The translations under genes were made by a program, and so were the position numbers. Under the pieces are notes generated by a model, which searched no databases, was not told the origin of the DNA, and saw nothing but the letters and a program-made list of their open reading frames with translations. A DNA stretch of 64,000 nucleotides from positions 126,679 through 190,678 of the forward strand of contig BDDD01000264.1 in the NCBI GenBank assembly GCA_001972305.1, written 5' to 3'. Position 1 is the first letter of the stretch, and each line of letters opens with the position of its first letter. Positions 1,085 through 64,000 of this stretch are shown here, piece by piece. This DNA comes from Cephalotus follicularis (Eukaryota; Streptophyta; Magnoliopsida; Oxalidales; Cephalotaceae).

Positions 1085-1220
1085 CAGACCTGCGTTAACA
1101 GAGCAGACTTGCAAAGCAACAGATAGCAAACCTGCGTTAGCATAGCAGACTTGCAGAGTAGCGCAGAGCAGACCTGCATTAGCAGAGAAGACTTGTAGAG
1201 CAGCATGGGGCAGACCTGTG
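1085..1220. repeat. Phased CAGACCTGC array in B1
   Basis: Seven copies of CAGACYTGC-like decamers start at 1085, 1104, 1127, 1146, 1169, 1188 and 1211. The spacing alternates strictly 19, 23, 19, 23, 19, 23, giving a 42-bp period (2 x 21). Confidence 0.85.
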
Positions 1221-1225
1221 TTAAC

Positions 1226-3455
1226 GGTTGCAGAGCATACTAGTTCCTGGAGTCTGCTCGGCATCATGTTCGCTAGTGGGGTACTATCCCGAGTAGACCT
1301 GGGAGCTGCTAGGAAAAAGCATTGTACATGTTTATAGGTTGCAGACTAGGCATATGCTGAGAATAAAAGGAAACCCATGATGAACAAACCTGCTCAATGC
1401 CATCCAGAGCATACCTGATATATGTTAAGCAGACTAGGAAGCAGGTGGGATTGTAGATCTGCTCTGGAGTGGGTTGTCTTACCCTGCTATAAAGTCGTGT
1501 ATGAAAAAGGATTTAAGAATTTTTAAGGCCCAATAATTCGCCCAATCTTTACTCTCTCTTGTATGGCCAAAATCATGCTTTCTCATGGCCCAATTATGAT
1601 GAATACATGTAGATAATTCAGCAAAGTTCTACACTATTCTCATGGGTTCTACGGCATTCCATACTTAGTATCTTTTAGCCTTATGAATAAGGAAGAACAA
1701 CAATTCTTGTTCTCTTTGGCCGAATCATATCAGCTTACAAGCTCCCCAATTCTTCTTCAATTTTCTTCAAGGAGATCAACATTGTAATAGAGCTATCATC
1801 CTTTCTTCTAGTACTTTAAGGTAAGATCATCATTTTGCTAAGATTTGTGGATACGTTGCATGTATACCTCTCAATTTTTGGGGCTGAGGAAGGATGATTA
1901 AAGTAATGAATATAGCTTGATAGTAAAAGATGTTTGGATTAGAATTGGAGCAAGGTATTATAGATCAATCATCGGGTTTCTTCCCTTAAAGTTTGGTTTC
2001 CATGAAGGAAAGGAGAATTTATGTTTTCTAAGGTTTAAAAGAATGATTAAGAGGAGTTATTAGCTTGTGGACTAAGAAATGGAAGCATATTAATATTGAG
2101 ATGATCATTTTGATGCCTTAAATATATTGGCTACCATGATAAGAGATTGATTAACTAATTTGGTTTAATGAAAAAGGTTGGTAATGCTAATTTAGAATCA
2201 AAGGGTACCATGGAGAATATAGCCTTGGTATGGCATATATGTGCACTACTTGTATCTTTTTTGTATAAGCATAGGAAATATGCTTATCGAATTGTCATGT
2301 GATGACATTGTAGACGTGGATACGGTAGCTGATCCAGAACATCGAGAGACTAGTCCGCGATAGTGTATTGCAGTAATCTGTGAGTGGGACATTCCCTTCG
2401 TATTCTTTATTGTCTTGAGACTCTTGTTTGATATGTGCCCTGTTGTACTTGGGTTATGTGATGATTCAATCAGGATTTAAATCCCATATGTCTTATGTTG
2501 AGCATGATCTTTGATTGTGATGAGATTTATGAGCATATGAGGCTCGGGCTCCCAGTGACTAGGTCACCTTCCCTTTTTATGTATCATTTTGATTATGATA
2601 CCGTACTTTGTACTCTGATGCTGGTACTCTGTGATATATCTCATGTGATTTCAGTCGAGGGTGAGGTGTACGTACGACGCTCAACTTTCCTTAGCAGACT
2701 CATTGTCTATGATGGGGTGTTATGTGGGAACTGCCCCTGGGAATCCATAGCCTGGATCTGTAGCATACCGTTGGTCTATGATGGTATGCAGAGTGTGAGT
2801 GCAGCAGAGCTCCGTTACTCACCTGTCGGACCATGTTTGATTATCGGGCGAGGGTTGGGTCCTTGCGGTGATATGCAGGCCCCTCGGACGAGGATGAGAT
2901 ATATTGGACGAGGGCTGGGTCCGTACGGTGATTCGTCAGTCCCTCGGACGAGGTAGAGGTATTGGCAATTTACATCGATGTATGAAGAATGTTGTACACA
3001 TCCTGTAGCCTTACCTGAGATTATTGCTGTAGCGGCTGATTTATGATGTCATGATATATGACGGTGATATGAGATATGACGTTCACATAATATGTGATGG
3101 TGATATGATTTATGATGATGACAGTATAGATGTACCAGCATCCCGAATACTATGATTTTATGGGCACATTTCTTGATTCATGATTATTGATCATATCCGT
3201 GATTCTTGATATTTTTATGTACTCTGATTTTATTGTGCTCCTATTATACTTATGGAGTTCCCTTGAACTTTGAGATTTGTTTAGTGGATTCATTGTTGAG
3301 TTACGAATCACTTTCTTTTTGGAGTCTCCTTGATGTTATTATCATTCCTTGGATTTAATTCACTTTATTTATGGTTTTATATTCTTGATCATGCTATACC
3401 GCTTTTATTCAGCGCATCCCGTTTTGGTCTGGATGCAGCAGGGAATGACTTGTCC
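1226..3455. repeat. Non-coding body of solo LTR B1 (left part)
   Basis: AT-rich LTR sequence without recognisable genes. Short degenerate GAGGG/CCTCGGACGAGG repeats lie near 2840-2960. An open frame of 153 codons crosses this part but has no recognisable domain and is not shared by B2, so it is not called a gene. Confidence 0.6.
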
Positions 3456-3658
3456 TGTAATAACCGCAATTTTCAATTAATATATATTGTACAATTATGA
3501 ATAAAATATACATTATATTGAGATTTTAGGTCCCAATTGTCATGTGAATGGTTATTATTAAATTGTTGAAGGTTGAATTGAATGTGTAAGTTGAGGGCTT
3601 AATCGAAATAAGTTGAAAGTTAGGGGAATAAATAGTAAAGAATCAAATTTGGGCGTTG

Positions 3659-3736
3659 CAGTCGACTGTCAAGGGGTAACAGTCGACTGGTCTGCCATAA
3701 AATGGACAGTCGACTGCCGGATAAAACAGTCGACTG
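3659..3736. repeat. CAGTCGACTG array 1 in A's 5' LTR
   Basis: Four perfect CAGTCGACTG palindromes start at 3659, 3680, 3707 and 3727 (spacing 21, 27, 20). The 3' LTR keeps the same spacing at 10760, 10781, 10808 and 10828, but three of the four motifs there show C-to-T type changes. Confidence 0.9.
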
Positions 3737-4454
3737 GTCTAGCTCAGACAGGTGTCTGTGCATGGTATGTGAAACAAAGTAGTGGCGTGTCTTCATCTTG
3801 GATAGGTGTTGGTTGGCGAGAATTAGAAAGACAGGTGGCACAAATGTGTCACCAACTGCCTACATAGATGGGCTGGAGTCCTAAGTCATTACACCTGTAA
3901 ATCAGAAAAAGAGTGAAGAAAACGTGAATGAGGGAGAGAGAAGAGAAAAGGCTGAAACCTTAAGTTAGTGATTGAAACGAATCTCTGGAATACTATTTTC
4001 TTTATGATAGAGGTGGCATGAATGGTTTTGAGTGTTGGAAATGTTAAAAGGAGAGAGAACCATCTGCTACTGTGTGCATGTGGAGTTGGAGCTCAAAGTG
4101 GGGTTAGAAAGCTTGAAATCTAACTGGTAAGCTTCTGGTTGATTCGGTTTGTTATAGTTGTTGCAATAGGTATATGTGTACTGAATTAGTTATCTATGCC
4201 TACTGTTAACATAAACGTATAGATTTATTTGTTGGATTGTTGAAGTGTGTTGGAACTCAAAGAGAAGAATCACTCAACTGATTCTGGGATAGCGATTTGA
4301 GGTAGGGGTTTTGACATGTTTTTGAAGATATAGTATGTATATCATGTCAGGATAGTCGCTATATGATTGCATGCTGTTCATTGGGTTGAATTAAAATTGT
4401 GAGCATGCATACTCTGTTTTTGTTTGTTATTGCCTGTTGATTTTCTGGGCACAA

Positions 4455-4586
4455 CAGTCGACTACTCAACGTAACAGCCGACTGTGAAGGACAAACAGTC
4501 GACTACTAAATGTAACCAGTCGGAAATTCTTATGTAACAGTCGGCTGTGCAAGTAAAAAGTCGGCTGGTGACAAAATAGTCGACTG
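4455..4586. repeat. CAGTCGACTG array 2 in A's 5' LTR
   Basis: Seven variants of CAGTCGACTG start at 4455, 4475, 4496, 4517, 4538, 4558 and 4577, a spacing of 19-21 bp. Confidence 0.88.
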
Positions 4587-5791
4587 TCAAGGGACATTTT
4601 GCTACTGATAGGTACTGTTTAGGCTTAAATTGTATGTAATTACACTGGCCTCCATATGGGATGATTCTAACACTCAATCCTGGCCATATGTATTTACATT
4701 TCTGGAGTTAAATGACTTATGCATTCCTTGTGAGAATTGTGTAGAAGGGACTATGGTTTCTCTATTGATCCTTTGTTTGAATCCTTGAATTCCTACTGTT
4801 CATACTGTTCTGCTACTATATAATGCTACTGACATTGCATATCTATCAAGTGTTCATAAATAATATTGTTTCACTTAATTTCAAGGGTTTTAACCAACTA
4901 AGTGCTACATGCACAAATAAGAATTTCAGTTATGGTTCTCAAAATGGAAACTACTGTTAATGATTTATTGTTTCCTCCCATGAGAGGTACCACTACTGTT
5001 TTGTTCTCCAAAAGATAACCACTATTATATTGTTTCGATTTCCTCCAAAAGAGAGGCACTGTTAATGAGTTGTTTAAATGTTTTCTAGAAGAAAACTACG
5101 TTTATATTACATACATATATGTAATATTGCTATTTGAATTGATTGTCTATGCTAATTGCCGGTAGTCGAGTGATAAGAGACATCACTGACTACGGGGGTG
5201 GTCCTAGGTGCCAGAAGTTGGCTAGAGCTTCCACCAAACTTATCTGCAATGCAGAGCTTGATATTTACCTGCCCACTAAATACCGGCAGAATGGTTACCT
5301 GATCTATCATCTTCGAAGTGTAGGGTGATAGTTAGGTGGTGCGCAGTTGGTGCTAGGAGTTAGCGACATGTGACACCCAACCATTGTATTGATTGATTGT
5401 ACCCTTGTGCGGTATTTTTTATAATTCAACTGATTGTAACCACTTGGCATGATTGATTATATATATTATTCAAAATAAACTATCGTGCATGTTTACATTT
5501 ATATATTCTTTCTCATGCATTATTCCTACTTAGCCGGATGAGGACAAAGGCTAACCCCCTACAATTTCAGATTGACGAAGGTATTTGGACAAGTGCTGCT
5601 GAGGCTTATTGGAGAGAGCTTCTGTTTTAAATTAAGGTTGTTACTTTAAGATGTCAAGTTGTATTGTAATAAATCATACTCCGTTCGTTATTCTTACATT
5701 TCAGATATGTAATTATAACCTCTATGTTGTTAATTTTTGAATGCTCCCCATATATATGTTATTATAACTGATACATATATATGTGACAACA

Positions 5792-5803
5792 TGGTATCAG
5801 AGC
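5792..5803 (+). other. Primer-binding site of element A
   Basis: TGGTATCAGAGC lies immediately after the LTR end. It matches the complement of the 3' end of plant initiator Met-tRNA, the usual primer for Tekay and many copia elements. Confidence 0.85.
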
Positions 5804-5854
5804 TTATTAATTAATAAGCAATCGTTGGGATAAGTTTCTAGGTAATTAAGTGCA

Positions 5855-8800
5855 TTGTTTCCTGATGATTATGTCATTCCTTATAGGAAACATAATGAAT
5901 CTAAGGAGAGGAGGCGTCGAAGGCCTCGTGCCGTTGACGAAGTTAATATTCCACAGGTGAATGAAGAAGGGAACCTTCCGCCAATGAATGAAGGAGTGGA
6001 TATTCCGCAGATGCCAGAAGCAGGGAATGTTCCCCCTGTACCTGATGAGAGGAGTAACTTCGATCGCATGGCTAATCTCTTTCAACAGCAGTTTCGGGCG
6101 AATGCGGAAAATATGGAACAATTGCGGCAGATGTATGAGGCTAACCAAGCCTATCAGTGTGCTCTGAAAGTTTATCATGCAAATGGATTTGGCAGAGATC
6201 TGGAGCAATTCATGAAGCAGAATCCGCCGCTATTCAAGGGTGAACTGGATGCTACTGTAGCAGAACAGTGGATAAGAGACATGGAGAAAATATTTGCTAC
6301 TTTGGGGTGTACTGATGGGCAGAAGCTCAATTTCGCTGTATACTGCTTATGGGGTGAAGCTACCTATTGGTGGGAGATGGATGAAGCAAAATGGAAATCT
6401 CAGGATCTTGATAGGACTTGGGACATATTTCAGTCTAAGTTCTTTGCAGCTTATGTTCCACAGATGGAGCATGGCCGGAGGGAAACCAAACTAATGGAGT
6501 TACGTCAAGGAGACATGACTGTAGCTTAGTACCAGACCAGATTTGTAGAGATGACAGACACACGCCTTATCTGGTGGAGGGTGAATCGAGGAAGATCAGA
6601 AGGTTTCTGAAAGGCCTTCGACCTGACATCAGATCTAAACTGTTAATGATGTAGCTCACTTTTTCTGTAGATATTGCTGAAAGGAAGAGAATTCTAGAGG
6701 CCGATGCAAATGACAGAAGGATGGAACGGTCTCATGCTAATCAATCAAGACCTGCACAATCACAATGGCAGGGAAGTAATAATCCTGCTAAATCAGCAAA
6801 GTCGGGCAACAGGGGTCAAGGAGGTTCTCGACGTGATGATTCTCGGTCAAAAACTCCTAACCAAAGCGGTCAACAGAATTCTGGTGGATGTAGTTTCTAT
6901 GGTCACCAAAACCATGATAAGAATGATTGCTGGAAAAAGATGGGTAAATGTTTGAGATGTGGCTCGCAAGAACATATGATGAATAGTTGTCCAATGATGA
7001 GGGATCAAGCACGCGGCCAACGAGGAAGTGCTGGTGCTAGTTGTAGTGTTGCGGCTATGCAACCGCGAAGGGATCCTAGAAAGGGGATTGTGAAAGGTAG
7101 GGTCTATACCATATCTAAAGATGATGTGCCAAAATCTACTTCTGTCATTGGAGGTATCATTTCCATATATGGCATATTAGATCATGTATCGATTGATCCT
7201 GGTGCTACACATTCATTCATTCCATCCGATTTTGCTTGCAACTTGCATGGTATGTCTTCTTGTTTGCCTTATGTACTGGAGGTGAGTACTCCAACTGGTA
7301 CTTGTCTTCTGACCGATACTGTAATGAATAATTGTGAGATCATGATAGTTGGGGTTCAGTTATCTACTGATCTAATAGTATTGCCTATCCAGGATTTCGA
7401 TGTGATCTTGGGGATGTACTGGCTCTACGCTCATCATGCTTGTGTTGATTGCTACAACAAGATGATGACCTTTTATCTACGGGATGGGACTGAGTACAAG
7501 TTTATCAGAGAGAAGAATGTTTCTGCTCCGATCATTTCGTATACTCGAGCACAAAAGTATCTAAAGCAAGGATGCGAAGGCTATTTGGCATATGTGATTG
7601 ATCATACGAAAGGTACGCCTATTATTGAGAAAGTTCCTATTGTATGTGATTTTCTTCACACATTTCTGGATGATCTTACTTCATTGCCACCGGAGAGAGA
7701 TGTAGAGTTCGGTATTGAGCTAGTGCCTAGGACTGCTCCTATATCCAAAGCTCTGTACAGAATGGCTCCCGCTGAATTGAAGGAGTTTAAGACTCGATTG
7801 TAGGATTATCTTTATATGTGCTTAATCAGACCGAGTGTGTCACCGCGGGGAGCACCGGTCCTATTTGTAAAAAAGAAGGATGGATCGATGTGGCTATGCA
7901 TCGATTATAGGCTGCTGAATCAGGTGACTGTGAAGAACAAGTATCCTCTGCCACATATTGAGGAGTTGTTCGACCAATTGCAAGGCTCAACTGTATTCTC
8001 CATACTTGACCTGAGGACAGGTTATCATCAGTGGAGGGTCCAGGAAGGTGATGTGGAGAAGACTACATTTCGATCCAGATATGGGCACTATGAATTCTTG
8101 ATACTGCCGTTTGGTTTGACGAATGCTCCTACAGCCTTTATGTGTTTGATGAACAGAGTATTTCAGCCCTATCTTGTCCAGTTTGTCGTTATATTCTTAG
8201 ACGACATCCTGATTTATTCGAGGTGTATTGAGGAGCACATGTAGCATTTGAGGATTGTGTTGCAGACATTGCTGAAGGAATAGTTATTAGCCAAATTCAG
8301 TAAGTGTGAATTTTTATGCTGGATCATGTGACTTTCCTTGGTCACATTGTGTCAAGTGAAGGACTATCGGTGGACCCTTCAAAAATTGAGAGTATTGTTG
8401 ATTGGCCCCAACCGAGGAGCGTTACTGAGGTTCATAGCTTCTTGGGATTGGCTGGCTATTACCGAAGGTTCATCAAAGGGTTTTCGAAGCTTGTCGTACC
8501 ATTAACACGGTTGACTCAGAAGAAGTCAAGCTTTGTGTGGGATGATTCGTGTGAAGCAAGTTTCCATGAGTTGAAGAGTCGGTTGATTTCGGCTCCAGTG
8601 TTGGCATTACCTGAGGGTAATGAGGGTTTTACTGTTTATAGTGTTGCTTCTGGGAAGGGCTTGGGATGCGTCCTTATGCAACATGGTAGAGTGATTGCAT
8701 ATGCATCAAGGAAGTTGAAGTCGTACGAAGAAAACTATCCCATACACGATCTTGAGTTGGCAGCCATAGTGTTCGCTTTACAGAAATGGAGACACTATCT

Positions 8801-10516
8801 CTATGGTGCTCAATTTGATATCTTCACGGACCACAATAGCCTGAAATGTCTATTTTCCCAGAAAGATCTAAACATGAGACATAGAAGGTGGGTGGAGTTC
8901 TTTAATGATTATAGCTGTAACATTCAATACCACCCAGGGAAGGCGAATCTAGTGGCGGATACGCTGAGTCTCAAGGCAATGATTGATGGTGCGATGGTTT
9001 CACAGTGGAAGCTATTGGAGGATTTTCAGATATGAAATCCATTCATGGTTTCCCAAAGAGTTATTGTGGCGAATCTTATAGCACAACCAGAACTTCTAGA
9101 TCGTATTCTGAATGCACACTTCAGTGATTCTGAGTTGTGGAACATTCGCGAGAATTTGGATCCTGATTCTGAGTTCTCCCTACATGCGGATGGCATATTG
9201 AGGTTCCGAGGAAGGGTATGTGTTCCGGATGACAAGAGCATCAGAGGTGAGCTACTGTTGCAAGCTCATAAGTCAAGTTATAGTGTTCATCCGGGAAGCT
9301 CTAAGCTGTGGCACGACCTGAAAAGGAACTACTGGTGGAGTGGTATGAAGAGAGAGATTGCCGAATATGTAGCCAGATGTTTTACCTGTCAGAGAGTGAA
9401 GGCTGAACATCAGAAACCAGCGGGACTGCTACAGTCGTTACCAGTGGTTGAGTGGAAGTGGGAGCATGTGACCATGGACTTCGTGTCAGGATTACCAAGG
9501 TCACAGAATCATCATGAGGTAGTGTGGGTTGTAGTGGACAGACTCACCAAGTCTGCACATTTTCTTCCGATGAATATGACGTATTCCATCGAGAAGTTTG
9601 CTGGATTATATATCAGGGAGATAGTGAGGTTGCATGGAGTGCCGATCAGTATTGTTTGTGACCGCGAAGCAAAATTCACCTCAAGTTTCTGGAAGAGGTT
9701 CCAAGCAGCGATGGGAATGACTTCGAACTTCAGTACTGCATTTCACCCACAGACTGACGGACAGTCCTAGCGTACCATTCAGACTCTTGAGATATGCTTC
9801 GGGCTTGTATGATTAATTTCGCTGGGAGTTGGGAGGATCATCTGTCACTGATTGAGTTCTCTTACAACAACGGCTATCATGCCAGCATTGGGATGGCTCC
9901 CTATGAAGCCTTGTATGGGAGAAAGTGTCGATCTCCTATTTGCTGGGATGAGGTGGGTGAGAAACAAGTGCTGGGACCAGACCTTGTGCAAGAGACTACT
10001 GATAAAGTGGAGGTGATCAAGAAGAGGTTACTCACTACACAAAGTCGGCAAAAGAGTTATGCCGGCATAAAGAGGACGAAGCTGGAATTCGAGAAGGGAG
10101 ATCATGTTTTTCTGAAGATCTCGCCTTCGAAAGGGATACACCATTTTGGCCTCAAAGGGAAGCTAGCTCCAAGGTACATTGGACCTTATGAGATACTGGA
10201 GAGAGTTGGCGAAGTGGCCTATCATATTGCACTACCGCCCCACTTGTCGAGTGTGCATAACGTGTTTCATGTTTCCATGATACGGAAATACGTACCCGAC
10301 CCATCTCACATATTGAGCTATAACCCTGGATTCATCAGTGATAATCTGTCGTATGAAGAGTGGCCAACGAGGATTGTTGATAAAATGGAGAAAGTACTAA
10401 GGAATAAGACTATTCCTATGGTAAAGGTATTGTGGCGGTTTCACGGAGCTGAGGAAGCTACATGGGAGCGTGAAGCTGAAATGATGGAGACGTTCCCTCA
10501 CTTTTTCAGAATGTGA
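5855..10516 (+). pseudogene. Gag-Pol remains of element A (chromovirus)
   Basis: Parts are in the usual order. Gag is at about 5.86-6.7 kb, with paired CCHC knuckles near 6.89-7.0 kb. Protease is near 7.15-7.45 kb (ATHSFI region). Reverse transcriptase is at 7.75-8.3 kb ([25 protein letters not shown]). RNase H is at 8.6-8.95 kb ([19 protein letters not shown]). The integrase zinc domain is near 9.25-9.4 kb (CFTCQRVKAEH) and its catalytic core near 9.46-9.9 kb. The GPY/F module is near 10.1-10.3 kb (PRYIGPYEILERVG), and a C-terminal chromodomain-like segment is near 10.36-10.5 kb (VKVLWRFHGAEEATWE). The last domain places it in the chromovirus branch, Tekay-like. It is a fossil with about six breaks and no product is expected. 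Confidence 0.88.
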
Positions 10517-10539
10517 AGCTAAATTCGAGGATGAATTTA

Positions 10540-10556
10540 CTATAAGGAGGGGGGAA
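10540..10556 (+). other. Polypurine tract of element A
   Basis: ATAAGGAGGGGGGAA stands directly before the TGTAATAACC start of the 3' LTR, the usual plus-strand primer position. Confidence 0.8.
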
Positions 10557-10759
10557 TGTAATAACCACAATTTTCAATTAATGTATATTGTACAATTATT
10601 AATAAAATATACATTATATTGAGATTTTAGGTCCCAATTGTCATGTGAATGGTTATTATTAAATTGTTGAAGGTTGAGTTGAATGTGTAAGTTGAGGGCT
10701 TAATCAAAATAAGTTGAAAGTTAGGGGAATAAATAGTAGAGAATCAGATTTGGGCGTTA

Positions 10760-10837
10760 CAGTCGATTGTCAAGGGGTAACAGCCGATTGGTTTGCCAAA
10801 AAATGGACAGTCGACTGCAGGATAAAACAGTTGACTG
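10760..10837. repeat. CAGTCGACTG array 1 in A's 3' LTR
   Basis: Four decamers at 10760, 10781, 10808 and 10828 (spacing 21, 27, 20) match the 5' LTR spacing exactly. The motif variants are CAGTCGATTG, CAGCCGATTG, CAGTCGACTG and CAGTTGACTG. Confidence 0.88.
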
Positions 10838-11045
10838 GCCTAACTCAGACTGGTGTCTGTGGATGGCATGCGAAACAGAGTAGTGACATGTCTTCATCTT
10901 GGAAAGGTGTTGGTTGGCGAGAATTACAAAGACAGGTGGCACAAATGTGTCACCAATTGCCTACACTGATGGGCAGGTGTCCTGAGTCATTACACTTGCA
11001 AAATAGAAAAAGAGTGAAGAAATCGTGCATGAGGGAGAGAGAAGA

Positions 11046-13834
11046 TGTAATACCCTGCTTGTTCGTAAATATATTTTACGGATTTTATGGTTGTGTTCGG
11101 GCTTTTTAATTGTGTTTAATTTTAAAGTTCAGTTGCCCTTTGTTTTGGGCTTATGTGATTTGGGCTGACTGATACCAGTCCGAATATTTGGGTATGTTAT
11201 GCTATGTTGGGCTTGGGTTTTATTTATTTATAATCCAAAATTATTTTATTATTATCTTTTATTTTTAAAATCCCTTTTATTATTAATTCCTTATTTTCCT
11301 TTTTCCTTATTTCCTTATTTTTCTTCCTTTTTCTTTTCTTTCCTTTTCTTCTTATTTCCTTCTTCCTTCTCCCTTCACCCGAAGTCTCCCTCTCCCTCAT
11401 TGAATTCCACTCGTTTACAATCTTTCTTTCCTTTCTATATCCCCACAAATCCTCTCCTTTTCCTTATGTGGGCAGATTTGGTCTCCCCTTTTTCCTTTTG
11501 TTGTGCCATTGCCATTCTATAATTGCCTCTTTCTTTTTTCTGCCTTATGTCACTGCCGATTCTGCCTTGTGAGTGTCTGTCCAGCTGCTGTGTAATTCGT
11601 TCTTCAAAATTCGAAGAGGTAATCTCAGTCCTTTTATGTTTCTTTGGATTGAATTCTTTTAGTTTGTTAAGCATGTATGTACTCCTTGTTTTGTTTTCTT
11701 GTCCTCCTTCTGTACAGTTGTTTGATCAGTGAATTCGTGGTATTCTTGCTGTGTTTTCTGTGTCCTTAACATCATTACAAGTCAGTTAATTTGTCTCTTC
11801 TATTATGGTTTTGTTGCAATGTGGTAAAAGTTTGAGTTTTTATGCTCTTGGTGTCTTTGAGTCTTGATTCCTGCCTAAATGTGTTGTCATTGTGTTAATA
11901 GGATTGTCAACACGTTTTATGCACATAGATATGTCACAAACTGGGTTTATAACATCCGTATTTGATAAAAGACAGAATCTGGATATATACATATGCATTG
12001 TCTTCTTGCTTCCTTTTGTAAGTTAACCCACTGTCAGGTTATTTTCTTGTCAATTCTGTGTTTTTATGTCACCTACAAGTCATATATAATCATATGTTTA
12101 TGTCCATATGTCTCTGGTTTAATGTAGAAACCATTTAAACACATTTCAGTATCAAATTGTCGAAATTCCAACTGTTCTGTCGCCCAGAACAGTCGGCTGT
12201 CTCTGTGGACAGTCGGCTGGAATGGATGAGTAGCCGACTGCCAGATGAATGCAGTCGACTGCCTTAGGTTGAGTAGTCGACTGGAGGTATGAACCAGTTG
12301 ACTGCCTGCACTTTAGATTGAGTAGTCGACTGGACCTTATGAATAGTCGACTGTCTTGCTTCCCCAGTCGACTGGAGCCCTGTATTAGTCGACTGTTTTG
12401 CCCAGAAATGTACTATTTTCAACTGTTTTAATTCGTTTGATCCCCGAATCGATCCGAGTCCTTTCCAAACACTGTTAAGAGTCTGTTTAATACTTATGAT
12501 GTGTTTTAGACTCTTATACGTATGATTCTGAATGTTTTTTTTAGATTGTTGTGTTTCAAGTGGATTCCGCTTAAATCGCCCATTCGTAAGTACTTTGTGA
12601 GCGCATAAGGTACGGATTTTCTATTCCTTGGCTATCTAATATTCGAACTGAAAACAGATTTACTAAGCTTCTTCGTTTATGAAATTGAGAATGTTTTATG
12701 ACTTTTACATGTTTCGTAATTAAAGTTGGTTTGATATTTAAATGATTCCGACTTTATCCATACGATATGAAATGATACGATATGTTATGATACGATACGT
12801 TATGATACCGTTGTGAGCGGTTTCCGAATATGTTAAGAGAAAACATATGTCATGTGATTTTAAATTGATTTTGATAAATCAATATTTTTGAAATAAATAC
12901 TGAGTGTTGTACCCACCTATGGGGCGTATCCATAGGCACGTCGTAGGCCTGGCACGGGGACGTGACACTTCCGTAGCAGTGTGATTAGACTACGGCGTCT
13001 CTGAGTGTATGAACGAATCCCATGAGGTGGATTTGTGGATCCGCTATGTATGATAGAGGCATATGAATCGATTCTAGTTTATGTGATCTGAGCCGAATGA
13101 TCAATTATGTGATCCGAGGTGTGATCGGATATGTGTATGTGAGAATTGACTTGTGTAGTACCGTACACTTCAATTCTAGTGGGCATGTGGAATTAGCGCC
13201 TCCCTTGCCAAATTTATGATATGTGATATGTATATGGCTCAGTATGTTTTATGAACTATGATTTGTGATTTAAGATTCGTAAATCGAAAATAATGTTTTG
13301 AAATGTTCCGTAATTGTTTCGAAAGTTATGTAATTGTTATTTGAATATGATTAAACTGTTTTAACTGTTTAAGATTTTTGTTACGTTATTATTGAAATAT
13401 TAATGTTTTAAATTACCATTTACTGTTTTATTTCCCTTATCCATACTGAGGTTTGCTCAGCCGCGTTTTGTTTTCCATACGGCAGGTTTTCAGGAGCAGC
13501 GGGGGAAAGTGTGACGAGTGATGACCACCCTTTGTGATAGGATCCCTAGGAGTGTGATCCTTGTTTTATATCTAGTGGTCATGAATATTTTTGAGAAACA
13601 ATGATATTTATGTTTTCAGCTTTTAAATTTGGAACTTAATTATGTTTTAGGTATTTCACGAAATACTTAATTGTTAAGTTTTTAATGTTTCAGATATGAT
13701 AAGACTGCCACGTTTTGGCTGTTTTTGACTAATAAAGTAATGTTATGATTCGTTATATTATGGTTATATTATGATAAGTTAATGTTATGTATGATATGAC
13801 CCTGTGACGACTCCCGCCGTCCGGGGGTGTTACA
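11046..13834 (+). mobile_element. Solo LTR of the K gypsy family inside A's 3' LTR
   Basis: It starts TGTAATACCCTGCTTG and ends CGGGGGTGTTACA. The 5-bp direct repeat gaaga flanks it at 11041-11045 and 13835-13839. It is 2789 bp long with no coding domains, so it is a solo LTR. Both ends and the internal palindrome array match the LTR of element K (54397-57141, opposite strand). A pyrimidine-rich run lies at about 11270-11400. It is younger than A by nesting. Confidence 0.9.
12190..12395. repeat. Phased CAGTCGACTG array in the K-family solo LTR
   Basis: Ten decamers of the form YAGNCGNCTG start at 12190, 12210, 12231, 12252, 12274, 12295, 12323, 12344, 12365 and 12386. All intervals are 20-22 bp except one of 28. 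The position of the 28-bp interval is shared with both LTRs of element K. Confidence 0.93.
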
Positions 13835-14364
13835 GAAGATAAAAGGCTGAAACCTTGAGTTAGTGACTGAAACGGATCTCTGGAATACTATTTTCTTTAT
13901 AACAGAGGTTGCATGAATGGTTTTGAGTGCTGGAAACGTTGAAAGGGGAGAGAACCATCTGCTACTGTGTGCATGTGGAGTTGGAGCTCAAAGTGGGGTT
14001 AGAAAGCTTGAAATCTAACTGGTAAGCTTCTAGTTGATTCGGTTTGTTATAGTTGTTGCAATAGGTATATGTGTACTGAATTAGTTATCTATGTCTACTG
14101 TTAACATGAACGTATAGATTTATTTGCTGGATTGTCGAATTGAGTTTGATTGAAGTGTGTTGGAACTCAAAGAGAAGAATCACTCAACTGATTCTGGGAT
14201 AGCAATTTGAGGTAGGGGTTTTGACATGTTTTTGAAGATATAGTATGTATATCATGTCAGGATAGTTGCTATATGATTGCATACTATTGATTGGGTTGAA
14301 TTAAAATTGTGAGCATGCATACTCTGTTTTTGTTTGTTATTGCCTGTTTATTTTTTGGGCTTAA

Positions 14365-14517
14365 CAGTCGACTGTTAAGGAAAAACAGTCGACTACTCAA
14401 CGCAATAGCTGACTGTTAAGGACAAACAATCGACTACTAAATGTAACCAGTCAGCTATTCTTATGTAACAGTCGATTGTGCAAGTAAACAGTGGGCTGGT
14501 GATAAAATAGTCGACTG
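14365..14517. repeat. CAGTCGACTG array 2 in A's 3' LTR
   Basis: Eight decamer variants start at 14365, 14386, 14406, 14427, 14448, 14469, 14489 and 14508 (19-21 bp apart). This is one unit more than in the 5' LTR. Confidence 0.88.
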
Positions 14518-15847
14518 TCAAGGGACATTTTGGTACTGATAGGTACTATTTAGGCTTAAATTATATGTAATTACACAGGCCTCCATGTGGGATGATTCTA
14601 ACACTCAATCCTGGCCATATGTATTTACATTTCTGGAGTTAAATGACTTATACATTCCTTGTGAGAATTGTGTAGAAGGGACTATGGTTTTGCTATTGAT
14701 CCTTTGTTTGAATCCTTGAATTACTACTGTTCATACTGTTATGCTACTATATAATGCTACTGTTATAGATATTGCATATCTATCAAGTGTTCATAAATAC
14801 TATTGTTTCCCTTAATTTCAAGGGTTTTAACCAACTAAGTGCTATATGCACAAATAAGGATTTCAGTTATGGTTCTCAAAATGGAAACTACTGTTAATGA
14901 TTTATTGTTTCCTCCCATGAGAGGTACCACTACTGTTTTGTTCTCTAAAAGAGAACCACTATTATATTGTTTCGGTTTCCTCCAAAAGAGAGGTACAGTT
15001 AATGAGTTGTTTAAATGTTTTCTAGAAGAAAACTACGTTTATATTACATATATATATATATATATATGTAATATTGCTATTTGAATTGATTGTCTATGCT
15101 AATTGCCGGTAGTCGAGTGATAGGAGACATCACTACAGGGGTGGTTCTAGGTGCCGGGAGTTGGCTAGAGCTTCCACCAAACTTATCTGCAATGCAGATC
15201 TTGATATTTACCTGCCCACTAAATGCCGGTAGAATTGTTACCCTATCTATCATCTTCGGAGTATAGGGTGATAGTTAGGTGGTGCGTAGTTGGTGCTAGG
15301 AGTTAGCGACATGTGACACCCAACCATTGTATTGATTTATTGTACTCTTGTGCGGTATTCTTGATAATTCAACTGATTGTAGCCACTTGGCATGTTTGAT
15401 TATATATATTGGAATAAATATATATATATTGTTCAAAATAAACTGTCGTGCATGTTTACATTTATATATTCTTTCTCATGCATTATTCCTACTTAACCGA
15501 GTGAGGACAAAGGCTAACCCCCTACAATTTCAAATTGACAAAGGTATTTGGGCAAGTGCTGCTGAAGCTTATTGGAGAGAGCTTCTGTTTTAAATTAAGG
15601 TTGTTACTTTAAGATGTCAAGTTGTATTGTAATAAATCATACTCCGTTCGTTATTCTTACATTTCAGATATGTAATTATAACCTTGTATTGTACTTAAAA
15701 GCACGTAGTATGGGCTGCGTGCGGATAAATTTAATAATCCGGTTATGGAATGCTTCCGCTTTTGATTAATGGATCATGATTAATTGTTGAATGCTGGATT
15801 ATTATAACTGATATCTATATATATGTTGTTAAATTTGAAAAACGGGG

Positions 15848-16261
15848 TGTAAACTCACCTAGTCATTTAGACTAACCCCCTCACTGTTATTTTTTTCCAG
15901 ATGAGGTAGCAGTTGACGTTTCACCTGATCCACAAAACTAGTAGCATTTGTGTCTGCGAGAGGTAGACCACAAAATTTAGGCACCTTACACTGGCAGCTC
16001 TAGCCAGCATCATATGCATGCATTGGGACATATGGGAGTTCATTTATGTTTAGTTTATGAGTGATAGATGGATGTTATGTTGAGATCTTATGGATTTATA
16101 AGGTTATAATGAATCGAAATTCATAATATAATGATTGTGGTATTCTTGTGATGGATTTAGACTTAATGAACTGCTGATTGCTCCTTCGAGAATGTGGAAA
16201 TACATATATTGTGGTTTGAACTGTAAATTTTAGCAGTTGTTGTCGATGCTATGCTATGGCT
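15848..16261. repeat. Right part of solo LTR B1, non-coding
   Basis: From aactcacctagtcattt onward it matches the B2 copy at 45535-45930, including a stretch near 15950-16010 (gtagcatttgtgtctgc). This shows that the B1 LTR resumes after element A. No gene is seen. Confidence 0.7.
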
Positions 16262-16490
16262 GAGCTCAAATAGTTAAAGGAAGAGCTCAAAAATGATAAG
16301 GCATAGCTTAGACAATGGAAGGCAGAGCTCTGAATGCTAGGGCAGACCTCGGAGGTAGAGGTCATAGCTCAAAGCTCGAAGTTACACCTCGGTGCTTGAG
16401 GGTAGACATCGGAGGAAGAGACCAGAGCTCAAAGTTCTAAGTCAGACCTCTGAGTCTGAAGGCAGACCTCAGAGGTAGAGGTCAGACCTC
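16262..16490. repeat. Phased GAGCTC/GACCTC array in B1
   Basis: Twelve hexamer sites (GAGCTC, GACCTC and variants, best form CAGAGCTCTG) start at 16262, 16283, 16304, 16325, 16345, 16365, 16385, 16405, 16425, 16445, 16465 and 16485. The spacing is 20-21 bp throughout. Confidence 0.93.
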
Positions 16491-51487: not shown

Positions 51488-51499
51488 CACTATTAGAAA

Positions 51500-54060: not shown

Positions 54061-54396
54061 TTAATTTGCATCATCACTATTATCATCTATTTCATCATCT
54101 TCGAAATTATTGTCCCCCTCTTCATCTTCTTCGTGTTCAATATACTCGTATCCATCATCAGGATCATTAGCATGGACATCNNNNNNNNNNNNNNNNNNNN
54201 NNNNNNNNNNNNNNNNNNNNNNNNNNNNNNNNNNNNNNNNNNNNNNNNNNNNNNNNNNNNNNNNNNNNNNNNNNNNNNNNNNNNNNNNNNNNNNNNNNNN
54301 NNNNNTTCACAAACCCTATCATTCTCAAATGCATCATCATTATTTAATTGAACACTATGAGTATCATCTTCTTGGTACGATTGATATTGGTCTACC
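54061..54396 (-). pseudogene. C-terminal end of a TNP2-type CACTA transposase
   Basis: The minus-strand frame reads VDQYQSYQEDDTHSVQLNND, then a 125-N gap, then an acidic tail (DDGYEYIEHEEDEEGDNNFE and on) ending at a stop codon at 54061-54063. TNP2/TNPD transposases end in a DUF4216-like region followed by such an acidic tail. Only this end is in the window. The upstream part is cut off by element K. Whether the frame is open across the gap is unknown. The assignment rests on composition, order and position relative to the Ptta-like gene. Confidence 0.55.
54181..54305. other. Assembly gap (125 N)
   Basis: A run of 125 undetermined bases within the TNP2-like tail. The length may be an estimate. 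Confidence 1.
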
Positions 54397-57141
54397 TGTA
54401 ACACCCCTGAACGTTGGGAGGCCTTACAGGTCATAATACAAAACATATCTAAACATGAACTCAAAACATAAACTTATCGTTGTTCAAAACTACGTGCTGG
54501 TCTAAAACATAATCCGGCAACATAACATAGTCTGAAAACATAGTCTGAAACTTTTAACATAAACCAAAATCATAATCCGAAGTCATAATATGAAAAGCAT
54601 AACATTGTTCAAAAGACATGCCCAAACATCACCATATGACAACAAAAACACAATATGATCAAACTCCTAGATGATCCTCAGATATAGGTGGACATCACTC
54701 ATCACACATTTTCCCGATTCTCCTGCTAACCTGCGACATGGAAAGAAAAACGCAGCTAAGCAAACCTCAATACGGATGAGGAATGTAAAACAGCAAAGAA
54801 AAATTTAAAAGATAAATAAATAAATAAATATCTTTAAATCATGATTTTAATGCAAAACATGATTGAAATATATATTCATAAGTAAAACAGAATACTCATA
54901 ATAAACAGTTATGAAATCACACCATTTCTGCATATTCAATTTTTTTCGAATTTCTGAAAACATCCGTATAGAAAAATATCATAATTTATCTGAATTATTA
55001 ATTCCATACAGAGATTGATGTACATATATATAAGTGCAAGGGGTTCGCGAGGCCCACATGCCAAACGAAAATACGTGTATGGCACTAAAAAATCAATCCC
55101 AAAATCCCAATCCAATAATAACTAGAGTCGACTCATACCCCTCAAATGGATCCATACCCTACCCTCTGGATATATATAAAGAGAGACTCCAAAGACAGAT
55201 CACACCGTCACGGTAAGTGTCATGTCCTCCGTGCCAAAGAACATGCCTATGATACCTCATAGGTAAGTTTTTCTCTGTATGTTATTATTCTAAAAACAAT
55301 CTAAAACATAAACAGATTTCCCAAACAATTTTCTGAACATATCCAAAATCATAATCATATCCGTATTAACATACCTCCGAAAGCTAAAGTCATGTTCGTT
55401 TAATAAAAAATCAGCACACTTTCGAAGGTGAAAGTCATACCCGTTTCACATACTTCCGATAGTGAAAGTCATGCTCAATTTATAAAATCAGTAATGTTCA
55501 ACTTTATTCATAAAGTAATAAAACATATTTTCTTCAAATAAAACTAAATATCCGAGAACGAAAAATTCCATTTCAATACCATTAGAAGATAGCGAAAAAT
55601 ATCCGTACATTAATCATAAAACTGAAACTGAATTGTTTCAATAAAATCATATTAAGATAGCCAAAAAACGATAGTATCCGTACCTTACGCGATCACAGAA
55701 TAACTTTATAAAAAGATCGACAATTTCTAAACTGCCCCACGGTAGCACAAAAATCTATAAAATACAAAATCATTCATATAAGGGCTTCAAATGAACTGCA
55801 AACATTATATCAGAAGTATAACTGTGTTTAACATAGACCCTGATCCATCAGAAGTACAAACGGATAAGGAAATTTGAAAGTAGAAATTTTCTGAACTCAC
55901 CAGCCGACTGTAACAGGACTCCAGTCGACTGTTCGAAGCCTGGCAGTCGACTACCCAACATGGCCAGCTGACTACACAAGCAGAACTGCAGCCAACCAAT
56001 TGGGACAGGGGTCCAGTCGACTGTGCAAGACATAGCAGTCAACTGATCAGGAAGACAGCTGACTACACAATGTATAACAGCCGACTGTTCAGAAAAACAG
56101 CACCCTATACTGGGCGACAGAACACAAAATCTAACAGTCCTATTCAATTTTTCTGTTAAAAATATGGATATCACATTACCAGAGGATCATAACCATTTAA
56201 ATAGAACTCTATAAGGTATTTAAAACAGTAAGAGAACACATAATTAAAAATAAGTATATAGACAGTGGCTAAGCTTAAAGAGAATGCTAATATCTGCATA
56301 TGTACAATCTGACAATTATCAATGCGTAAATCATCAGCTTATCATATCCAGATTACAGCATAAATAGGACACTTAAAGCTATTAAAAGACTCACAAACAA
56401 TAACAAGATAGAGTGTGGCAGGAATCAAAATAGAATTCTAACAGCCTGTATAGATATGCAAACGGATTCATAACAAAACAGGACAAACCATTACAGTAAA
56501 ATGAGAAAACCAACCTGCAATGGCGACACAAAAATCGTAGAAGGAACACAACAATTTCAAAGACTTACACGGCTATTCAACAGGAAAAGGAAAAAGGGAA
56601 AAACACATGGATTCAAAGCCTGCCCACGTTATGCATATCAAAGCAAAACAATCCATAAGTCTAACCATTAGAGAACAAACCTGATTGACTGCAAGAAGAA
56701 CACAGTAATTTCCCCAAACTTGCAGACTCAGCTACAGCCAAGCGTGAGAGAGAGAATGGCACGAAACAATGGACAAAAGGCATAATTAAACAGAAAAGAG
56801 AGGCAATTTTCGGAGGGATAAGGAAAGAGGGAGAGATTTTGGGAGAATTTGAGAGGAAGAAGAGAGATATACGGGATTGAGGGAGATAGGAGAGAGAGAG
56901 AGAGATAATTAATTCAAAAGATTTAGTTTTATAATGTTTAAAAAAAATTGATAATAAGTTAAAATAAAAATAAAAATAAGATAAAATAAAATAAATCTTA
57001 CTTATGCACATACACATACTAACAAACCCAATAACCAAGGCTGGTATAAGTCAGCCCAAAACCAAAATAAAAATAGGCAGATTTCTTAACAAAACATATT
57101 AAAAGTCTGGAAATACACACATGAACAAGCAGGGTATTACA
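54397..57141 (-). repeat. 3' LTR of element K
   Basis: The plus strand starts TGTAACACCCCTGAACG and ends GGGTATTACA. It carries three ~50-bp GTGAAAGTCATNC repeats near 55.38-55.5 kb and a CAGTCGACTG array at 55901-56087. A GAGAGA run and AT-rich stretch lie at 56.82-57.0 kb. Confidence 0.85.
55901..56087. repeat. Phased CAGTCGACTG array in K's 3' LTR
   Basis: Nine decamer variants start at 55901, 55922, 55944, 55965, 55993, 56014, 56036, 56056 and 56078 (intervals 21, 22, 21, 28, 21, 22, 20, 22). The fifth site is the most decayed. Confidence 0.92.
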
Positions 57142-57159: not shown

Positions 57160-57243
57160 AAGATTTCGTCTCGAAATTATAAATAACCACATACCTTAAA
57201 CAAACAAGCGAGGGCATTGCTCTCGAATGTGCTCCTCTAACTC

Positions 57244-61310: not shown

Positions 61311-61549
61311 CGTCCACATCAGACTCATTTCTGACGTCTTCCCGTGCCCCAGCTGGTGCAGTTCTCTAAGGGGTATTCCTTGTTCAAACCATCTATGCAA
61401 CAAAAACCAGGACAAGATAGAGACAAAAAGAATCAGAAAGCTGAAACAACAGACATATCGAAAAGACCATAACGAAATAGCCCTAACCCAAAGTCTACCC
61501 AATGTCACGGGTCAAACCTAGTTAGGTTTTCTAAGGAACCAAACATATT

Positions 61550-61560
61550 CTCTGATACCA
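61550..61560 (-). other. Primer-binding site of element K
   Basis: On the minus strand TGGTATCAGAG lies 5 nt from the 5' LTR end. Initiator Met-tRNA type. Confidence 0.8.
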
Positions 61561-61565
61561 CAATC

Positions 61566-64000
61566 TGTAACACCCCCGAACGATGGGAGCCCTTACAGGT
61601 CATAATACATAACACATCTAAACATGAACTCAAAACATAAACTAATCTTTATTCAAAAATATGTGGTGGTCTAAAACATAATCTGACAACATAACATAAT
61701 CTGAAAACATAGTCTGAAACTTTTAACATAAACCAACATCATAATCCAAAGTCATAATCTGGAAAGCATAACATTGTTCAAAAGACAGGCCCTAACATGA
61801 CCATAGGACAACAAAAACTCAATAGGATCAAACTCCTAGATGATCCTCAGATATAGGTGGACATCACTCATCACGCATTTCCCAGATACTCCTGATAACC
61901 TGCCGCATGGAAACAAAAACGTAGCTGAGCAAATCTCAGTACGGATAAGGAATGTAAAACAGTAAACATATATTTAAAAGATATATAAATAAATATCTTA
62001 AAATCATGATTTTCCTGTAAAACATGATTGAAATATACTTTAATAAGTAAAACAGAATATTCATAATAAACAGTTATGAAATCGCACCATTTCTGAATAT
62101 TCAATTTTTTTTGAATTTCCGAAAACATCTGTATGGAAAAATATCATAATTTATCTGATTTAATAATTCCATACAGAGATCTGATGTACATATATATAAG
62201 TACAAGGGGTTCGCGAGGCCCACATGCCAAACGAAAAGACATGTATGGCACTACACAATCAATCCAAAAACCGAATCCGATAATAGCTAGAGTCAACTCA
62301 TATGCCTCAAATGGATCCATACCCTACCCTCAGGATATATATAAAGAGAGACGCCGTAGACCGATCACACCGCCATGGTAGGTGTCATGTCCTCCGTGCC
62401 AAAGAACATGCCTATGATACCTCATAGGTAAGTTTTTATCTGTATGTTATTATTCTAAAAATAATCTAAAACATAAACAGATTTCCCAAAAAAAATTCTG
62501 AACATATCCAAAATCATAATCATATCCCTATTAACATCCGAAAGTGAAAGTCATGTTCGTTTAATCAAATATTGGCACACTTTCGAAGGTGAAAGTCATA
62601 CCCGTTTCACATATTTCTGATAGTGAAAGTCATGCTCAATTTATAAAATCAGTAATGTTTAACTTTATTCATAAAGTAATAAAACAAATTTTGTTCAAAT
62701 AAAGCAGAATATCCGAGAACGAAAAATTCCATTTCAATACCATTAGAAGATAGCGAAAAATATCCGTACATTAATCATAAAAGTGAAACTAAACTGTTTC
62801 AATAAAATCAGATTAAGATAGCCAAAGAACTATAGTATCCGTACCTTACGCGATCACAGAATAACTTTATGAAAAGATCGACAATTTCTAAACTGCCCCA
62901 TGGTAGCACAAAAATCTATAAAATACAAAATCATTCATATAAGGACTTCAAATGAACTACAGGCATTAAATCAGAAGTATAACTGTGTTTAAAAATGACC
63001 CCGATCCATCAGAAGAACAAACGGATAAGGAAATTTGAAAGTAGAAATTTTCTAGACTCACCAGCCAACTGTAACAGGACTCCAATCGACTGTTCGAAGC
63101 CTGGTAGTCGACTACCCAACATGGCCAGCAGACTACACAAGCAGAACTGCAGCCAGTTGACTGGGACAGGGGTCCAGTCGACTGTGCAAGACATAGCAAT
63201 TGACTGATCAGGAAGACAGTCGACTACACAATGTATAACAACCGGCTATACTGGGCGACAGAACACAAATTCTAACAGTCCTATGCAATTTTTCTGTCAA
63301 AAATCTGGATATCACATTACCAGAGGATCACAACCATTTAAATAGGACTCTATAAGGTATTTAAAACATAAAGAGAACACAGAATTAAAAATGAGTATGT
63401 AGATAGTGGCTAAGCTTAAAGAGAATGCTAATCTCTGCATATGTACAATTATACAATTATCAATGCATAAATCATCAGCTTATCATATCCAAATTAAAGC
63501 ATAAACAGGACACTTAAAAGCTATTAAAAGACTCACAAACAATAACAAGACAGAGTGTGGCAGGAATCAAAACGGAATTCTAACAGCCTGTATAGATATG
63601 CAAACGGATTCATAACAAAACAGGACAAACCATTATAGTAAAATAAGAAAACCAACCTGCAATGGTGACACAAAAACCGTAGAAGGAACACAACAATTTT
63701 CCAAGACTTACATGGTTGTTCAACAGGAAAAGGAAAAAGGGAAAAACACACAGATTCAAAGCCTGCCAACGTTATGCTTATCAAAGCAAAACAATCCATG
63801 AGTCTAACCATTAGAGAACAAACCTTATTGAAAAGATGAGACTGCAAGAAGAACACATTAATTTCCCCAAACTTGCAGACTCGACTACAACCAAGCGAGA
63901 GGGAGAGAATGGCACGAAACAGTGGACAAAAGGCATACTTAAACAGAAAAGAGAGGCAATTTCGGGAGGGAAAAGGAAAGAAGGAGAGATTTTGGGAGAT
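61566..64000 (-). repeat. 5' LTR of element K, cut by window end
   Basis: It matches 54397 onward along its whole visible length (about 2.43 of 2.75 kb). The palindrome array is at 63062-63248. Confidence 0.88.
63062..63248. repeat. Phased CAGTCGACTG array in K's 5' LTR
   Basis: Nine sites start at 63062, 63083, 63105, 63126, 63154, 63175, 63197, 63217 and 63239. The intervals are identical to those in the 3' LTR (21, 22, 21, 28, 21, 22, 20, 22), although several motifs differ by base changes. Confidence 0.92.

Follow-up and report, generated by a model that had tools for sequence, protein, structure and literature searches.

The question raised by this locus is why the long terminal repeats (LTRs) of several retrotransposons should carry short palindromes at an interval of about two helical turns. 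The locus is a 64,000-nucleotide stretch of the Cephalotus follicularis genome (contig 264, positions 126,679-190,678, in an assembly of 1,577,397,061 bases and 9,746 contigs), referred to here as the window, and all of the results below come from this one plant species. An earlier note on this DNA had described such palindromes, some 21 bp apart, in LTRs of many unrelated families, and had read them as sites for a dimeric or polymerising protein, possibly part of a silencing or insulator complex. The palindrome arrays are real, are abundant genome-wide and hold out of sample. Spaced dyad arrays were indeed found in LTRs, and the CAGACCTGC and CAGAGCTCTG families, which had been included among them, proved to be something else. 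It seems probable, if modestly so, that the arrays are cis-regulatory promoter arrays, bound cooperatively by a putative dimeric host factor and serving to activate the elements. The elements are designated by letters (A-K) that were assigned in the follow-up and paired with those of the earlier note by motif.

The window holds 45 copies of GTCGAC where a first-order model predicts 5.0, an approximately ninefold excess that no other of the 64 palindromic hexamers matches. Forty of the 45 copies fall within the 21,170 bp of LTR DNA (1.89 per kb vs 0.12 per kb elsewhere), and the 10-mer CAGTCGACTG occurs 12 times, which bears out the presence of dyad motif arrays in the LTRs. Palindromes in general were rejected as the source of the signal. 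Their excess is only mild (112 vs 69 for a half-length of 5, or 46 vs 37 with at least four G/C), and so the signal is that of one core and not of palindromy. Pairs of sites 20-22 bp apart numbered 11 for GTCGAC, 19 for RTCGAY and 30 for RYCGRY, where a jitter null gave 1.10, 2.17 and 4.46, respectively, and none of 2000 null runs equalled any of these counts. When all words paired 19-23 bp apart were ranked, AGTCGA came first of the 6-mers and AGTCGAC first of the 7-mers, with GTCGA (54, background 1.6) second to ATATA (60, background 36) of the 5-mers. Since the 5' and 3' LTRs of an element are copies of one another, these pair counts are not fully independent.

In a tally made partly by eye (weak sites at 4517, 55965 and 56056 added; 12 of 17 scan hits kept in C), 34 of the 47 consecutive steps in the eight window arrays measure 19-23 bp (mean 21.03, standard deviation 0.83). 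The remaining 13 steps span 25-80 bp, beyond the occasional 27-32 bp of the original description, and display no clear 10.5-bp phase (R 0.40, p ~0.12). The proposal that the sites lie continuously on one face of the helix goes too far: the nearest-neighbour step is fixed, but helical phasing of every gap is unsupported for the gaps between groups. As the tally was partly made by eye, the unbiased evidence on spacing is that of the jitter test and of the out-of-sample and motif-blind tests.

For the out-of-sample test, twenty 10-kb stretches (L010-L029; 200 kb) were taken at fixed-rule positions from the even-numbered contigs 2-40. This sample contains 133 copies of GTCGAC, forming 32 pairs at 20-22 bp vs a background of 0.22. 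Ranked by z-score at this spacing, AGTCGA (62 vs 2.67) was first and GTCGAC second of the canonical hexamers. Seven control palindromes gave six such pairs in total, three for GACGTC, two for ATGCAT, one for AAGCTT and none for GAGCTC, GCATGC, GGATCC or CAATTG. Chains of RYCGRY sites with steps of 19-23 bp numbered 83 with at least two sites and 29 with at least three, the latter distributed over 11 of the 20 stretches. In a second, small sample of four 6-kb stretches, nine RYCGRY pairs lay 20-22 bp apart, all of them in the same stretch. Genome-wide counts, which cover the 20-bp and 21-bp spacings only, gave 25,896 occurrences of CAGTCGACTG-N11-CAGTCGACTG (21 bp) vs 89 for a reversed-pattern control, and 8,471 of CAGTCGACTG-N10-CAGTCGACTG (20 bp) vs 36. 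The predicted genomic excess of 20-22-bp spacing thus holds both in 200 kb from 20 contigs and in the two genome-wide counts.

The same interval was recovered when no motif was assumed. A scan of the window and sample for any 8-mer found in four or more copies at constant lag, and with spacers less than 50% identical, returned 22 chains at a lag of 20-22 bp and 0-2 in each of 12 other lag windows. Rerun by source, the scan gave 4 chains in the window and 20 in the sample at this lag, and in non-overlapping 3-bp lag windows from 13 to 60 bp there were at most two chains each, except at 19-21. Three-word chains were less exclusive, with 32 at 20-22, 14 at 25-27 and 10 at 13-15 in the sample, and in the window 8 at 20-22 vs at most 3 in lag windows not overlapping 19-24. 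The rise at 25-27 and 13-15 in L010-L029 vanishes in four-word chains (2 and 1). A YCGR core is present in the modal word of 16 of the 22 blind chains. The other six comprise AACAGTCG, CGATGTCT and probably ATGTCTTT (twice), as off-centre frames of YCGR sites, and two words with other cores, TACAGAAG (L028) and GATCGTAT (L029). The 161 matches to CAG-N4-CTG in sample and window have TCGA as their core in 52 cases, CCGA/TCGG in 44 and CCGG in 8. The arrays (17 from the sample and 8 from the window, 25 in all) sort into 11 clusters by BLAST, some of which are linked solely via the arrays themselves.

Carriers of the arrays include the Ty3/gypsy elements A, F and K together with a solo LTR, H, a copia family that lacks Sirevirus marks and Sireviruses. 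Element A (3456-15684), a Ty3/gypsy element and probably a chromovirus, has its 5' LTR at 3456-5721 on the forward strand, paired by self-BLAST with 10557-15684; between them lie gag, protease and integrase domains, plus a chromodomain match that falls below the Pfam cut-off. Its array 1 (3659-3736), 203 bp inside the LTR, consists of four CAGTCGACTG with steps of 21, 27 and 20 bp, and array 2 (4455-4586) of seven CAGYCGRCTG-like sites, including the weak one at 4517, with steps of 20, 21, 21, 21, 20 and 19 bp. The 3' LTR copies lie at 10760-10837 for array 1 (4 differences in 40 bp, all transitions) and 14365-14517 for array 2. Nested in the 3' LTR of A is the solo LTR H (11046-13834, forward strand), with ends TGTAATACCC...GGGTGTTACA and GAAGA on either side. 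The H array (12190-12395) has ten YAGTCGACTG-like sites with steps of 20, 21, 21, 22, 21, 28, 21, 21 and 21 bp and aligns to that of K. Among these ten sites the first base is split evenly between C and T (five each) and the last is always G, so that the outer dyad pair is not symmetrical throughout.

The gypsy element K has one LTR at 54397-57141 on the reverse strand and a second that begins near 61566 and exits the window (54396-56846+ paired with 61565-63999+ in self-BLAST), with gypsy protease, reverse transcriptase and integrase C-terminal domains between them. Its array (55901-56087; 63062-63226 in the second LTR) has eight CAGYCGACTG-like sites, two of them the weak 55965 and 56056, at steps of 21, 22, 21, 49, 22, 20 and 22 bp. 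Element F, also gypsy and probably a chromovirus, has LTRs at 30526-32489 (reverse strand) and 40769-42748 by self-BLAST, with SH3_Tf2-1 and a chromodomain match below the cut-off. Its AAGCGTCGACGCTT-like sites lie at 31737-31856 (steps 21, 53 and 32 bp) and at 41970-42068 (steps 53 and 32 bp); as a spaced array, F has a single 21-bp pair, in the first of these LTRs, and the second has none. The two LTRs (31737-31771 vs 41970-41983) differ by one phased site, gained or lost post-insertion. The domain scan took in ten window ORFs (open reading frames), one of which was without any match, and found SH3_Tf2-1 in each of A, F and K. Because the integrase C-terminus of F and K is 60% and 57% identical, respectively, to that of A, the three probably represent sister families within a single chromovirus lineage, and the LTRs of H and K align, the only such LTR alignment among A, F, K and H in self-BLAST. 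The families are thus less unrelated than had been claimed.

Pairs of sites typify C, G and D as well as array 1 of A. Element C is copia-type, with its 3' LTR at 16733-17466 (reverse strand) and its 5' LTR at 20886-21616 by self-BLAST; it carries Retrotran_gag_2 (copia gag), and the best protein match of this gag ORF is 68% identical, with Cephalotus follicularis proteins ranking first. Its array (16903-17307; 21056-21464 in the second LTR) holds ACGTCGACTT-like sites in six pairs, each with a step of 21-23 bp and with 29-80 bp between pairs, so that 12 sites lie at offset 160-564 of the 735-bp LTR. A strict TATA box, CTATATAAA, follows the array by ~100 bp on the element strand. Multiple polypurine tracts precede the 3' LTR (two AAGGGGGAG and a terminal AAAGGGAGAG). 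Since these tracts fit a Sirevirus but the attachment junction is AA/TG, not the AT/TG of Sireviruses, C is classed only as Sirevirus-like. The copia-type LTR G (42923-43964) was recognised via its homologue in L015; its array (43416-43550) comprises three pairs (steps 21, 20 and 21 bp) with 31 and 25 bp between pairs. In D (47338-47439), within a putative LTR at ~47.4 kb, two pairs of 23 and 21 bp lie 48 bp apart. The L015 element has an LTR pair (3-1014 and 7851-8862) around a copia-type reverse transcriptase, identified by eye among the listed ORFs, and its primer site is presumably of the tRNA-Met type.

The Sirevirus layout is clearest in L013, where a copia reverse transcriptase (5194-6834) is followed by four sites (7055-7126), an ORF of family PF20167 with its ATG at 7241, three AGGGGGA tracts, an AT/TG junction and a 3' LTR from 8955. 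This LTR carries sixteen sites at offset 164-600, and a TATA box, CTATATAAG, stands at offset 717, 117 bp after them. To judge from its position, the PF20167 ORF would be the envelope-like gene. L028 has the same order of copia reverse transcriptase, sites, PF20167 ORF and tracts, and L017, a stretch that covers these parts, has sites, ORF and tracts in order; arrays thus stand 5' of the PF20167 ORF in L013, L017 and L028. The motif arrays thereby precede two Sirevirus transcription units. As the ORF lies between arrays, a PF20167 protein encoded by the element was considered as their reader, and was dropped because the layout is that of a Sirevirus envelope-like gene.

The sixteen LTR sites of L013 (9119-9555), L019 (714-1146) and L020 (9116-9548) form four quartets, each of three 20-22-bp steps, with site-free linkers of 49-65 bp, those of L013 (64, 62 and 49 bp) matching those of L019 (65, 60 and 50 bp). 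L021 has two quartets, and over the four stretches the linkers measure 46-65 bp. Quartets were rejected as a general rule, having been seen in one Sirevirus group; other arrays are pairs or longer chains. L021 also contains two 875-bp Sirevirus-type LTR copies, 99.3% identical and head to tail (2906-4654), inserted in a gypsy pol between reverse transcriptase and RNase H, at a border seemingly common to L019 and L020. At 4804-5107 of L028, 3' of the PF20167 ORF in the copia element, CTGCAGCTACAG alternates with CCTAGCTACAG in 20-22-bp steps with 48-49-bp gaps.

Comparison of motif and spacer bears directly on the possibility that the arrays are diverged minisatellites, in which a founder unit of ~21 bp was tandemly duplicated and then aged. 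Within arrays, motif identity is 1.00 in A1, 0.87 in H, 0.77 in C/G, 0.75 in A2, 0.70 in D and 0.65 in K, the last lowered by one site entered one base out of register. Adjacent 8-mers are at chance level in A1/H (0.21-0.28 identical) and modestly above it in A2, D, C and K (0.27-0.42), with 0.26-0.29 expected from composition; the A1 spacers are 0.21-0.27 identical vs 0.28 expected, and G is clearly above chance (0.49-0.55 vs 0.34). A unit conserved over its full length, as in a minisatellite, was not found in A1, H, A2, D, C or K. It was found in E, a 42-bp unit with copies 77-85% matching, and simple tandem repetition thus accounts for E and not for arrays whose inter-motif DNA is less conserved than the motif.

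Related elements give the same contrast. The LTRs of H and K share homology, and alignment brings the sites of the two arrays into register, the 28-bp step included; between H and either K copy 90 of 100 motif positions are identical, as are 56 of 105 in spacers and 180 of 288 in flanks (p 5e-9, motif vs spacer). For L019 vs L013 the values are 154/160 for motif, 92/127 for spacer, 104/143 for linker and 420/561 for flank (p 7e-11); for L019 vs L020 they are 155/160, 111/128, 120/145 and 484/566; and for L019 vs L021 they are 62/70, 33/52, 27/55 and 440/560. Over these four comparisons motifs are 89-97% identical and spacers 53-87%, with a mild bias in that sites were chosen by motif likeness in one member of each pair. 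When the motif mask was slid along the L019/L013 alignment, the true register ranked first of 301 offsets (0.963, mid-spacer 0.71); for H/K it ranked second (0.840), behind a shift of one period (0.845). Step lengths changed between relatives (L019/L013 and H/K) in 8 of 20 cases, each by at most 2 bp, when 9 of 25 neutral indels of up to 9 bp were longer than 2 bp (p 0.028, or ~0.02 by hand once one 8-bp indel omitted by the script is added).

A minisatellite origin would accord with the largely uniform orientation of sites within arrays, with the variation in array length between copies of the B repeat (13 vs 6 matches) and between the F LTRs, and with E being a plain 42-bp tandem repeat; neutral ageing can, moreover, hold spacing for some time. 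Such ageing would not, however, keep motifs at 96% while spacers and flanks drop to 72-75%, and motifs mutate faster post-insertion. Chains of this kind are almost absent at other repeat lengths, and the restriction of step changes to 2 bp also argues against it. This origin is already disfavoured and appears distinctly unlikely.

The faster mutation of motifs was seen in the LTR pairs of A, K, C and F, which differ at 41 of 349 motif positions, 52 of 783 spacer positions and 387 of 6216 others (p 2e-4 for motif vs elsewhere; p 0.005 for motif vs spacers), so that motifs decay post-insertion at approximately twice the rate of other LTR DNA. Thirty-two of the 41 motif differences are transitions, which is what would be expected of methylated CG and CHG cytosines. 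Motifs that are conserved between relatives yet decay fast once inserted indicate selection in active lineages, and this combination is the mark of a need in transposition or transcription, not of a host need. A separate suggestion is that the arrays are coated by a silencing or insulator protein of the host, and that the elements would keep them for stealth or host protection. The array geometry would suit a cooperative or polymerising protein, and the sites, to judge from the motif, are rich in CG and CHG. Loss of a silencer would benefit the elements, yet the motif is conserved between relatives, and the placement in L013 and C is that of a promoter array. A silencing or insulator role, as first proposed, is accordingly highly improbable, and promoter activation is favoured because in L013 the motif lies upstream of the LTR TATA box as well as of the envelope-like gene.

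The palindromes might instead act as RNA hairpins, in small-RNA silencing or in packaging. Folding of H, A, K, F, G and D gave z values of -3.2 to -6.7, and small-RNA hotspots are described at maize Sirevirus palindromes in the accessible parts of PMC5311732 and PMC10760457. C, which holds pairs at 21-23 bp, folds like its shuffles (z -1.67, -1.39 and +0.05), hairpins need no fixed 21-bp step, and the position before two promoters points to DNA. No compensatory change was found within sites, the comparison covering within-site pairing only, and selection for self-hairpins was rejected on this ground. A role as RNA is for these reasons very unlikely.

Motif sharing between superfamilies addresses the origin of the protein. 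The 14-mer AAGCGTCGACGCTT is common to gypsy F and to the copia LTRs of L015, which align to G at 69%, and the 10-mer CAGTCGACTG is common to gypsy A, H and K and the L013 Sireviruses; no copies of the AGGGGGA tract were found inside A, F, K or L015. The use of the same sites by gypsy and copia elements favours a host factor. The family-specific flanks (CA..TG, GC..GC and AC..TT), in turn, favour several related factors or co-evolved readers of the VANC kind. VANC proteins undo silencing in Arabidopsis VANDAL transposons (PMC5735166, as far as its accessible text goes), and the arrays could by analogy be targets of element-encoded anti-silencing proteins, with one motif and one reader per family. 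In addition to the flanks, this would fit the CG and CHG cytosines of the sites and their decay mostly by transitions (32/41). The shared 14-mer and 10-mer argue against one reader per family. The ten window ORFs showed gag/pol-type domains only and no extra DNA-binding domain, small or split ORFs lying outside the scan, and VANC motifs are non-palindromic in the accessible text of PMC5735166. Element-encoded readers of this type are considered unlikely.

A cooperative dimeric activator, by comparison, fits the dyad core, the conserved flanks, the two-turn step and the promoter-side placement. In the proposed model a putative dimeric protein would recognise the palindrome through an RYCGRY core, mostly GTCGAC, with family-specific flanks, and adjacent dimers would cooperate at ~21 bp, or two helical turns, centre to centre. 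The occupied array would switch on the LTR promoter and, in Sireviruses, also the internal envelope-like gene. The protein would most likely belong to the host, as one transcription factor or a few related ones. That part of the original interpretation which saw an array of sites for a dimeric protein is the one best matched by the dyad core, the two-turn step, the free spacers and the conserved motif. Binding of RYCGAC by CBF/DREB proteins was also considered as a possible link to the array sites.

Several observations weigh against promoter activation by such a protein. An outward-facing strict TATA box lies within 300 bp of only 3 of 17 sampled arrays, where the null gives 1.29 and reached this count in 265 of 2000 runs; an association with TATA boxes over all arrays was accordingly rejected as not significant. 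The arrays of A, H and K lie ~200-1,350 bp into LTRs of 2.3-2.8 kb, and in these long gypsy LTRs only looser matches and no strict TATA box were found. A direct-repeat pair around the array, within 10 kb, was present in only 2 of 12 sampled array-bearing stretches, namely L015 and the tandem pair of L021, so that the LTR placement of most sampled arrays is presumptive. A consensus palindrome of half-length at least 3 was obtained for only 7 of the 22 blind chains, few being palindromic because bases four and seven of the site vary. Motif flanks within an array mostly point the same way (11 of 12 sites in C, in a scan of one orientation), hinting at an origin by tandem duplication, and the absence of compensatory mutation within sites counts here as well. 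Finally, in a simulation of neutral indels taken to one substitution per site, 76% of steps stay within 19-23 bp, or 90% with indels of at most 5 bp, compared with 20 of 22 observed in A2, H and K. Retention of spacing was therefore set aside as proof of selection, and because passive retention is allowed by the simulation, selection on spacing is suggested, not proved.

The claim that this architecture was undescribed does not hold for Sireviruses. Bousios et al. (2010; PMC2829016) describe, in the portion of the paper available, a "repeated motif" (RM) that stands before the TATA box of the LTR and again before the envelope-like gene and that was reported as Sirevirus-specific, and leave open the role of the palindrome clusters. 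The RM resembles the present arrays in its many palindromic copies in the first part of the LTR, in the divergent DNA that flanks them and in cases with a TCGA core (Vitis and Tnd-1). Palindromic copies likewise occupy the upper LTR here (offset 164-600 in L013, 160-564 in C and 203-280 in A1). A cluster shortly upstream of a TATA box was found in L013 and C, this being the arrangement of 3 of 17 sampled arrays vs a null of 1.29, and a second cluster lies upstream of the envelope-like gene in L013, with arrays also in L017 and L028. L013 matches the RM layout as a whole, the PF20167 ORF occupying the place of the envelope-like gene. The core of the RM is mainly CGG-CCG, with Tnd-1 the one exception in the 2010 table (PMC2829016, available portion), whereas here it is RYCGRY. 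The RM is also reported there as absent from classic retrotransposons, whereas the present arrays extend beyond Sireviruses to A, F and K, which encode gypsy-type domains, and to H and the copia elements L015 and G. In the text of that paper, figures and supplements aside, 'spacing' and 'helical' appear in reference titles only.

Maize Sirevirus palindromes (Bousios et al., 2016; PMC5311732, PMC10760457) also form clusters in the LTR cis-region; in the accessible parts of these papers they differ in their motif, CACCGGACNNNGTCCGGTG, and in their small-RNA targeting context, and no fixed spacing is given. VANC targets are similar as short, family-specific motifs amplified in non-coding transposon DNA, and differ in belonging to DNA transposons, in being non-palindromic and in having an element-encoded reader (PMC5735166, accessible text). 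Retand elements carry 3' tandem repeats with an antisense ORF, that is, repeats beside an extra, possibly DNA-binding protein; their repeats are tandem and lie between pol and the 3' LTR, and phased dyads go unmentioned in the available text (PMC11963269). A literature search of limited depth, in sources partly accessible, found no earlier account of a fixed spacing, nor of arrays of this kind in the LTRs of gypsy elements. What is new relative to the RM is the fixed 21-bp step, the gypsy and other copia LTRs as carriers, and the motifs common across superfamilies. Scans of viral contigs gave only five isolated, chance-looking pairs and, for the integrase and RNase H queries, no confirmed relatives.

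With their two-turn step, near-neutral spacers and strongly selected motif, the arrays point first of all to a protein reader, and the sharing of motifs by gypsy and copia suggests a common host factor that would be a control point over many retrotransposon families at once. It would be the point at which a stress or developmental signal could wake families together. More tentatively, and with less than an even chance, the two superfamilies may have converged on one RYCGRY/21-bp dyad code read by one host transcription factor family, giving unrelated elements a single switch and creating a very large decoy array for that factor family. A bolder form of this idea is that, since T/C is tolerated at base four and A/G at base seven, the protein may accept 5-methylcytosine as thymine and thus bind methylated, silenced copies.

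Two further repeats of the window were left out of the class. The E array of CAGACCTGC (1080-1223), in an LTR pair at 781-2508 and 28773-30525 by self-BLAST, had been listed as a dyad array and is the 42-bp tandem repeat described above. Self-BLAST places A as an insertion within the B repeat (at 3093-3455 and 15852-16700, with a further copy at 45168-46259), whose array (16263-16536) repeats CAGASCTC at 20-21 bp; the motif of this CAGAGCTCTG family is asymmetric, a full palindrome occurring once, and not the palindrome it had been taken for. The B copies differ in array length, with 13 ASMTC matches at 16263-16536 and 6 at 45927-46066, a trace of unit gain or loss.

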